Source: Candidatus Gastranaerophilales bacterium (GTDB lineage: Bacteria > Cyanobacteriota > Vampirovibrionia > Gastranaerophilales > Gastranaerophilaceae). From it: a DNA stretch of 64,000 nucleotides. The position numbers and the translations under genes were made by a program. This document shows positions 4,209 to 58,652 of this stretch, piece after piece. The first letter of the stretch is position 1. Every line of letters starts with the position of its first letter. Under the pieces are notes generated by a model. The model saw only the letters and a list, made by a program, of their open reading frames with translations, ran no database searches and had not been told where the DNA came from. The DNA lies in contig CALUVM010000004.1 in the NCBI GenBank assembly GCA_944324255.1, positions 1 through 64,000 on the forward strand, given 5' to 3'.

Positions 4209-4360
4209 AGTCACACAATCAGTTAGTCAGTTAGTCAGTTAATCACTTAGACACTGGTCACTACCTCAACTTCCCCCCACCCCATCCCTCCCCAAATTGG
4301 GGAGGGGAAAAAATCCTTATTAACTTATTCACTTAATCACTTAGTCACCTATTCACTACC
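4209..4360. repeat. two TTAGTCAC-type short tandem arrays flanking a C-rich hairpin
   Basis: Degenerate 7-8 bp repeats in TTAGTCA/TTAATCAC orientation occur at about 4209-4265 and 4321-4360. Between them, 4286-4306 forms a strong hairpin: CCCTCCCC, AAATT loop, GGGGAGGG, followed by GAAAAAAT. The rest of the 3941-4431 gap has no convincing ORF. It is a repeat-dense intergenic region ahead of the kinase gene. Confidence 0.7.
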
Positions 4361-27958: not shown

Positions 27959-28174
27959 GTCGGGAGACATTCCTCTGAACTACTAATCTATTTTATTATA
28001 CCCTGCCTCCCTCTGCTGACCGCCTTCGAATTGGTTCACGCCGGTGGGTTTATTCCTGTCGGGAGACATTTCCTCTAAACTACTAATCTATTTTATTATA
28101 CCCTGCCTCCCTCTGCTGACCGCCTTCGAATTGGTTCACGCCGGTGGGTTTATTCCTGTCGGGAGACATTTCCT
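27959..28174. repeat. tandem ~100-bp repeat (2.2 copies)
   Basis: Copy 1 (27959-28057) and copy 2 (28058-28157) are nearly identical, differing by a one-base insertion and one substitution; a third partial copy (28158-28174) repeats the first 17 bases. Each unit begins GTCGGGAGACATTTCCT and contains CTGCCTCCCTCTGCTGAC and TTGGTTCACGCCGG. No ORF runs through it. A diverged inverted homologue lies at about 34625-34716. Confidence 0.9.
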
Positions 28175-28175
28175 T

Positions 28176-28208
28176 ATTCACCTAGTCACTAGTCACTAGT
28201 CACTAGTC
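28176..28208. repeat. short tandem array, TAGTCAC heptamers
   Basis: Four near-perfect heptamers in (C)TAGTCAC orientation follow directly after the 100-bp tandem repeat and end just before the response regulator stop codon at 28219. Confidence 0.75.
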
Positions 28209-28218
28209 CCCAGCTCAC

Positions 28219-49336: not shown

Positions 49337-50986
<1,650 letters not shown>

Positions 50987-51020
50987 TTATGTTCCTTTCA
51001 TTTATTTTTATACAATCAAG

Positions 51021-51052
51021 TGACTAAGTGATTGAGTGATTAAGTGATTAAG
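51021..51052. repeat. four TGAYTRAG octamers (left array)
   Basis: Exactly four octamers: TGACTAAG, TGATTGAG, TGATTAAG, TGATTAAG. The third-to-last bases include the stop codon of the four-helix-bundle gene. Confidence 0.9.
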
Positions 51053-51395
51053 ACTTTGTATTCAAATATTTTTTTAATCCAGAAATCATAGCTGCAACTA
51101 AATTGATATCACTATACAAATCTTCTTGTTTCAAGTAACCCAATGTTTCTGCAATTATTAACTGGGTTTCTAATTCAGCAAGTGAGCCTAAAGCTATATC
51201 AATAAATCTAAGAGTTTCTTTATCTGATCCTCTGGCACATCCTTCAGCAATATTGGAAGGAATAGATACGGCAGCACATCTAATTTGATTTGTTAGTCCA
51301 TATTTTTCTTCTGGAGGAAAGCCTTGTGTGCTAGAATATACTTTTATTACAAGGTCTATTGATTTCTTCCATGCTTCCAAATCTTTGTGATACAT
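51048..51395 (-). CDS. four-helix-bundle protein of the S23/IVP family
   Basis: A 115-residue all-helical protein with the family pattern: LEAWKKSIDLVIKVY, FPPEEKYGLTNQIRCAAVSIPSNIAEGCARGSDKE, FIDIALGSLAELETQLIIAETLGYL, ISGLKKYL. Relatives are encoded in 23S rRNA intervening sequences, and the Avd protein of diversity-generating retroelements has the same fold; their function outside those settings is unclear. The gene lies between groES and groEL and is bracketed by inverted octamer arrays, the left one containing its stop codon. AAGAGG upstream of the ATG starts at the edge of the right array. No reverse transcriptase is present. Confidence 0.9.
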   Translation of the reverse strand: MYHKDLEAWKKSIDLVIKVYSSTQGFPPEEKYGLTNQIRCAAVSIPSNIAEGCARGSDKETLRFIDIALGSLAELETQLIIAETLGYLKQEDLYSDINLVAAMISGLKKYLNTKS

Positions 51396-51402
51396 ATAAC
51401 CT

Positions 51403-51434
51403 CTTAGTCACTCAGTCACTTAATCACTTAGTCA
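51403..51434. repeat. four inverted octamers (right array)
   Basis: Four units CTTAGTCA, CTCAGTCA, CTTAATCA, CTTAGTCA, the reverse complement of the left array type (TGAYTRAG). Together with 51021-51052 they form 32-bp terminal inverted arrays around the four-helix-bundle gene. Confidence 0.9.
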
Positions 51435-51444
51435 CCACTTTTAT

Positions 51445-51732
51445 TTATTCAACAATCGCCAATGCATCTTTGATAGAAAGAATTTTATATTCTACACCAT
51501 CCATTTTAATATCTGTTCCTGCATATTTAGCATAAAGAATAACATCACCGACTTTAACATCCATTGGTTCTCTTTCACCGTTTTCACCGATTTTGCCTTC
51601 ACCGACAGCAACTACTTCACCTTTTTGAGGTTTTTCTTTTGCACTGTCAGGAATAAAGATTCCGCCTGAAGTTTGTTCTGTATCTTCAATAACTTTGATA
51701 ACTATTCTGTCCTGTAGTGGTTTTAATGCCAT
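51445..51732 (-). CDS. groES: co-chaperonin GroES
   Basis: A 95-residue protein: [44 protein letters not shown], with the mobile loop that docks on GroEL, and [16 protein letters not shown]. An AGGAGG site precedes the ATG. No CIRCE inverted repeat (TTAGCACTC-N9-GAGTGCTAA) lies in the upstream region, so HrcA control is not supported. Confidence 0.97.
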
Positions 51733-53049: not shown

Positions 53050-53065
53050 GGAAGGAGAATAAATA

Positions 53066-58486: not shown

Positions 58487-58560
58487 GTTAGTGACTGGTG
58501 ATTAGTGATTAGTGATTAGTGATTCGGTGACTGAGTGACTAAGTGATTAAGGGAATAAGG
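58487..58560. repeat. TAGTGAT heptamer and TGAYTRAG octamer array
   Basis: About four GTGATTA heptamers, then TGACTGAG TGACTAAG TGATTAAG octamers identical to those around the groESL insertion. It lies between a terminator and the dCMP deaminase gene and contains no ORF. Confidence 0.85.
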
Positions 58561-58652
58561 GAAAGAATGCAAATTTACGCATACCTGCCCGACTAAAACT
58601 TGATTCCTTACCGGCAGTATAATATAATCATTTCAGGCAAAGGAGTATGAAT

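Follow-up and report, generated by a model that had tools for sequence, protein, structure and literature searches.

We know of no established role for the S23/IVP proteins, although a structure dates from 2006. Intergenic arrays of 7-bp tandem units occur in cyanobacteria as short tandemly repeated repetitive (STRR) sequences, and the eukaryotic foldback elements (FB/Galileo-type) consist of a variable loop between inverted termini that are built from short tandem repeats, in gene-less and gene-bearing forms. The intervening sequence (IVS) of Coxiella burnetii is an insert in 23S rRNA that carries an S23 open reading frame (ORF), forms a 28-bp inverted stem and is cut by RNase III; three GACAGAT heptamers and a degenerate fourth precede its ORF, their number varying among strains (PMC4990558). 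Intergenic heptamer arrays have also been described in Xanthomonas (GGGAATC, often inverted, with 70 inverted pairs; PMC4692102) and in Beggiatoaceae (TAACTGA; PMC4679880), in neither case with any mention of S23. Here, we analysed a 64-kb stretch of DNA (hereafter the window; positions 1 to 64,000 of contig CALUVM010000004.1) from a Candidatus Gastranaerophilales bacterium, in which an S23 gene framed by inverted tandem arrays separates groES from groEL. We argue that this feature is probably one copy of a mobile or selfish, transposase-less, foldback-like cassette, the protein-operon counterpart of the 23S rRNA IVS.

On the minus strand the order is groES, S23 gene, groEL (Table 1). An earlier note on this sequence had recognised an S23/IVP gene between the two chaperonin genes, which profile searches confirmed, and had described exactly mirrored flanks of four TGAYTRAG octamers each. 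The count and the inversion hold (four units on the plus strand at 51021-51052 and four on the minus strand at 51403-51434), but the mirror is imperfect, with four mismatches over 33 bp when the arrays are aligned. It was also correct that the S23 stop codon lies inside the last unit of one array (the 3' arm in gene sense) and that the other (the 5' arm) touches the ribosome-binding site, whose AGAGG follows it directly. An unbiased scan for tandem arrays of period 7-9 found six in the window and none in each of eight Markov shuffles; the arrays are therefore not due to chance. When the RNA is folded, the arms pair end to end and leave the S23 gene in the loop (minimum free energy -103.7, z -2.9). 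The cassette thus has the terminal inverted repeats, forming a stem around the insert, by which an IVS is recognised; because it lies between groES and groEL and not at the defining location inside a 23S rRNA gene, we term it IVS-like. S23 is its sole gene, and the HUH tyrosine transposase that characterises REP/RAYT systems (see below) is not present in it. Two mismatches in the stem are conserved across seven species (loci L218-L221, L224, L225 and L227), namely T opposite T in unit 2 and C opposite C in unit 3. At L034, in genome G070, the 5' arm seemingly provides the groES stop codon, and groES ends in VIQ instead of the usual IVE.

The S23 protein matches PF05635 (23S_rRNA_IVP) at 125.5 bits against a curated cut-off of 33.8 (E 1.2e-36), as well as TIGR02436 (four helix bundle). 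Its AlphaFold2 model (mean predicted local distance difference test score, pLDDT, of 95.5) fits 2gsc, the pentameric XCC0516, with Z 20.9, a root-mean-square deviation of 1.1 and 48% identity. With a profile score above the cut-off and a four-helix fold, it is a member of the S23/IVP family. The same model also resembles Avd from complexes of diversity-generating retroelements (DGRs) at Z 14-15, whereas the match to bAvd and that to the Avd profile (21 bits against a cut-off of 80) are weak. The protein is under purifying selection, with ratios of nonsynonymous to synonymous divergence (dN/dS) between relatives mostly of 0.03-0.17.

Nearly all of the S23 genes that were examined, in Cyanobacteriota and elsewhere, have arms of this kind. 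In the order, inverted arms flank 52 of the 53 intact S23 genes, and the same build was found in Bacteroidota, Proteobacteria, Cloacimonadota, Acidobacteria, Gracilibacteria, photosynthetic cyanobacteria and viral contigs. Complementarity between the left and right flanks had a median of 22 at S23 genes versus 10 for 157 control ORFs of the same loci (Mann-Whitney U test, p 9e-32), and for 55 loci the gene's own right flank was the best complement among 123. The period was 7, 8 or 9 in 106 of 134 arms, compared to 3% of shuffled arms. Irrespective of period, an arm holds about four units (median arm lengths in the order of 31, 33 and 40 bp), and the arrays show about four units plus a partial fifth. 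The 125 arrays comprised 99 distinct units; these show no universal core motif and have in common only that the left strand is poor in C and rich in A and G. Most cellular S23 genes have neighbours on the same strand on both sides, at a distance of about 60 bp, and a motif check of the loci examined found no S23 gene inside rRNA.

The groES loci of 28 relatives were compared in order to follow the groESL junction. In the genus it is filled in five genomes (the window's included) and short in ten, mostly with 14-40 bp between the genes and in one case with 127 bp. The S23 proteins of the filled junctions are 58-63% identical to that of the window, with the exception of one near-twin at 98%, and each filled junction has its own repeat unit: TGAYTRAG; GTGAATA/GTGATTA/GTGACTA; GTGAAGG/GTGAGGC; or AAGTTAAT. 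Within the genus, S23 scores above the family cut-off in 30 of 65 genomes, mostly at groESL, and decayed copies occur at L059, L240 and L243. The genome of the window carries only one S23 gene, and just 2 kb from it a junction of two oxidoreductase genes that is filled in relatives is empty. Presence and absence at orthologous sites, together with the occurrence of the unit at other sites, is what is expected of a mobile element. Uninterrupted groES-groEL junctions, for which the earlier note had suggested looking, exist, and other S23 genes have flanking arrays; the observation that by its own account would speak against its reading, an S23 gene in all relatives with arrays variable or absent, was not made. 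Its proposal of an array-gene-array unit that inserts into operons without a transposase is supported: groESL is polymorphic in the genus, the unit is also found at further junctions and outside the phylum, and the arms track the gene across sites.

Related S23 proteins are found in unrelated operons, at fliP-fliQ, a 2-oxoacid oxidoreductase pair and accB-accC, and arm similarity rises with S23 identity even across different sites (Mantel r 0.35, 0 of 2000 permutations). In the S23 tree the groESL location requires at least three changes: the sister of the window's clade is L232, from a fliP-fliQ junction, and L237, from another operon, groups among groESL cassettes, each of these placements having starred support. 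L033, a groESL cassette from another genus, nests within the window's genus, which indicates that one groESL cassette has crossed genera. Synonymous divergence (dS) was 0.00, 0.015 and 0.00 in S23 for three pairs versus 0.15-0.33 in groES/groEL, and 0.35 versus 0.97 for the inter-genus pair. In our comparisons, locus-specific inverted arrays delimit the cassette; close relatives have or lack it at one and the same junction, it is found again, with related S23 proteins, at further operon junctions, and it has been exchanged between species. A separate observation concerns a photosynthetic cyanobacterium (G290; L262-L272, L274) with at least 11 near-identical S23 cassettes, each within a larger repeat that has its own 16-bp ends (AACTGACGTTACGCA / TGCGTAACATCAGTTA) and resembles a miniature inverted-repeat transposable element carrying S23. 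We rejected these copies as proof of S23 transposition because they sit inside that repeat; the cassette there is probably a passenger of the larger element.

Table 1. Positions of the cassette, its host genes and other features in the window
Feature	Coordinates	Strand	Remark or basis
S23/IVP four-helix-bundle gene, 348 bp, 115 aa	51048..51395	-	PF05635 (E 1.2e-36), structure model, dN/dS
5' arm (left in gene sense), four 8-bp units GTGACTAAG-TGATTAAG-TGACTGAG-TGACTAAG	51403..51435	-	5' arm unchanged in relatives whose S23 is near-random at four-fold sites
3' arm (right in gene sense), four 8-bp units in opposite orientation to the 5' arm	51018..51052	-	Pairs over its full length with the other arm in the RNA fold
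S23 ribosome-binding region AGAGGTTAT, adjoining the 5' arm	51396..51402	-	Sequence; core beside the arm conserved in relatives
groES	51445..51732	-	Host gene upstream of insertion
groEL	49337..50983	-	Host gene downstream of insertion
Empty site, junction of two oxidoreductase genes	53050..53065	+	Filled by S23 cassette of another subfamily in L228, L239, L244
Two gene-less octamer arrays, one orientation, same unit family	4216..4348	.	Array scan
Gene-less mixed 7/8-bp array, same unit family	58489..58563	.	Array scan
Gene-less heptamer array beside longer intergenic repeat	28179..28214	.	Array scan

The octamer is not confined to the cassette. Tandem octamer pairs occur 70 times in the window's genome, versus 0 for a reversed control, and TGAYTRAG arrays at about 30 further sites besides groESL. 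Many gene-less arrays are arm-loop-arm hairpins with about four units per arm and loops of 10-70 bp, located for example at rpmJ-rpsM, rpoA-rplQ and rpsB-tsf (gene names read from translations). Opposite arrays less than 150 bp apart are always arranged as in the S23 cassette (12:0 in the genus and 10:0 in Luteimonas, 22/22 overall). Sites are also shared between the two forms: at fliP-fliQ, the window's genome has an array and a relative an S23 cassette, and in two other genomes the fliR junction is shared by a gene-less hairpin and an S23 cassette. In Luteimonas, the S23 gene at accB-accC has GGGAATC arms and there are 140 GGGAATC dimers genome-wide. Among genomes at least 90% complete, most of the array-rich ones carry S23 (10/25 versus 1/21, p 0.006, the genomes being related), a result only suggestive of a dependence of dispersed arrays on S23. 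Unit-specific action of S23 in trans was discarded as an explanation, as TGAYTRAG arrays abound where the S23 arms are of a different type and also in some genomes without S23.

Several features of these gene-less elements were noted in passing. In Gastranaerophilales, hairpins lie within ribosomal and other essential operons, in the spaces between genes (L280-L298, L189-L203), and those at rpsM and glycyl-radical-like (grp) junctions keep their position between species. A longer intergenic repeat (CTCCCTCTGCTGACC...GTCGGGAGACATTTCC and its complement) is repeatedly found next to octamer arrays (window 28000-28180; L020/L293, L025), and a composite repeat at L002, L028 and L299 has octamer arrays alternating with CCCTCCCCTGATTGGGGAGGGTTAGGGTGGGGGGCGGTTAATGG in up to three tandem copies.

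According to the reading we favour, the mobile cassette would consist of a 5' arm of about four 7-9-bp tandem units, the S23 gene and a 3' arm of the same units inverted, inserted in an operon after one gene's stop codon and ahead of the ribosome-binding site of the gene that follows. The arms would pair in RNA with the S23 reading frame in the loop, as in the S23-coding 23S rRNA IVS removed by RNase III; the tandem units could be recognised by the ring-shaped S23 pentamer or by a host factor; and the cassette, instead of encoding a transposase, would rely on recombination or repair functions of the host to spread. Its mobility is inferred from genome comparison, and a number of results weigh against it. 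The target-site duplication that the earlier note had suggested looking for was not detected above chance, direct repeats beside the arms being no better than cross-locus pairs (p 0.12). Exchange tracts at groESL take in 25-85 bp of groES and groEL, and the tract of one pair begins inside the S23 gene; for this reason the exchanges look like homologous recombination, which in its ordinary form could account for them. The gene-less elements at the rpsM and grp junctions are old and conserved and hence offer no evidence for recent movement. Furthermore, some array-rich genomes have no S23, and the unit of the dispersed arrays is often unlike that of the local S23 arm. Finally, mismatches in the stem comprise 201 A.C and 118 G.U pairs in the sense strand; as this is the opposite of the direction expected, selection for a sense-RNA stem was dropped from our account.

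Cassettes of different species share a 5' arm without a single difference (33/33 or 29/29) where their S23 genes agree at just 10/30 to 14/28 four-fold sites, while the 3' arm of those same cassettes varies in number and sequence. Such identity beside scrambled synonymous sites indicates that the sequence of the 5' arm is constrained. The conserved arm, the clade-specific unit and the five-fold ring together suggest that S23 reads the repeats. We also advance, much more tentatively, a broader proposal in which each S23 pentamer would recognise about five repeat cores of its own arm, driving transposase-less foldback elements throughout bacteria, with rRNA IVSs, operon cassettes and many heptamer or octamer arrays as their forms. 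The same data could be read as a regulatory device kept by the host within the operon, the pentamer binding the units beside its own ribosome-binding site, much as TRAP binds its repeats, in order to tune both S23 and the gene downstream; a cassette would then be present or absent because a useful part had been gained or lost. An arm that adjoins the ribosome-binding site and stays fixed over dS above 1, purifying selection on S23, and about four units plus a partial fifth facing a five-fold ring (that of 2gsc) all suit such a device. We nevertheless consider it rather unlikely, given that the cassette is spread over many unrelated operons, that close relatives often lack it or have only a pseudogene (the decayed copies listed above) and that its unit sequence changes between clades. 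Moreover, a selfish element may use the same autoregulation.

That gene-less arrays are common, and that the two arms agree more within a locus than between loci, would also follow if replication slippage and template switching produced the inverted arrays and S23 genes merely sat in hot spots. However, control ORFs of the same loci have no arms, the number of units stays near four, the opposite polarity is never seen in close opposite pairs, and the arms track S23 across sites. Slippage alone would not yield a 5' arm that stays the same between species whose S23 genes are saturated at synonymous sites while the 3' arm changes. As the sole cause, slippage is thus largely refuted and we regard it as improbable, although it could still explain the homogenisation of the arms.

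A retroelement supplied with reverse transcriptase in trans, in which S23 would act as Avd does in DGRs, appears very improbable: the link to Avd drawn by the earlier note stands at the level of the fold, but no RVT_1 match was found in the window's genome (99% complete), and reverse transcriptase occurs in about one in four genomes, whether or not these carry S23. The note's other suggestion, a co-chaperonin-linked factor of groESL, fits the fact that groESL is the commonest S23 site in the genus but is hardly credible when close relatives lack S23 there and related S23 proteins lie in other operons.

If the mobile cassette is what we believe it to be, it would be among the smallest gene-bearing bacterial elements, and one that enters essential operons (groESL, and ribosomal protein genes in the gene-less form) without breaking them. 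The function of S23 and the origin of short tandem arrays, an old puzzle, are now linked by a strict association, and both can be tested in one system of a 115-residue protein, a 30-35-bp arm and an empty site. No description of the S23-array link was found in literature searches limited to open-access PubMed Central, which is not proof of novelty.

In comparison with known systems, the groESL cassette is most like the 23S rRNA IVS: both have an S23 ORF within a stem of about 28-35 bp formed by terminal inverted repeats, tandem heptamers or, here, octamers before the ORF, and an insertion point in a transcribed unit. The cassette differs in lying in a protein operon and in having tandem arrays as both arms, and, with regard to the IVS as compared here, in a gene with a ribosome-binding site that is under purifying selection. 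Its build of inverted tandem termini, with gene-less and gene-bearing forms, is shared with foldback elements, from which it is distinguished by its bacterial host, much shorter arms, the lack of a transposase gene and the absence of a detected target-site duplication. With DGRs it has in common only the four-helix fold of Avd, the groESL locus being without reverse transcriptase, template or variable repeat. REP/REPIN sequences (repetitive extragenic palindromes and their hairpin-forming pairs) and their RAYT genes (PMC3116915, PMC2817692) likewise combine a gene between inverted short repeats with many gene-less intergenic inverted pairs; the RAYT protein, however, is a tyrosine transposase whose repeat is fixed, whereas S23 has a four-helix-bundle fold, no known nuclease activity and a clade-variable unit. 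The Xanthomonas heptamer GGGAATC is also the arm unit of the Luteimonas S23 cassette.
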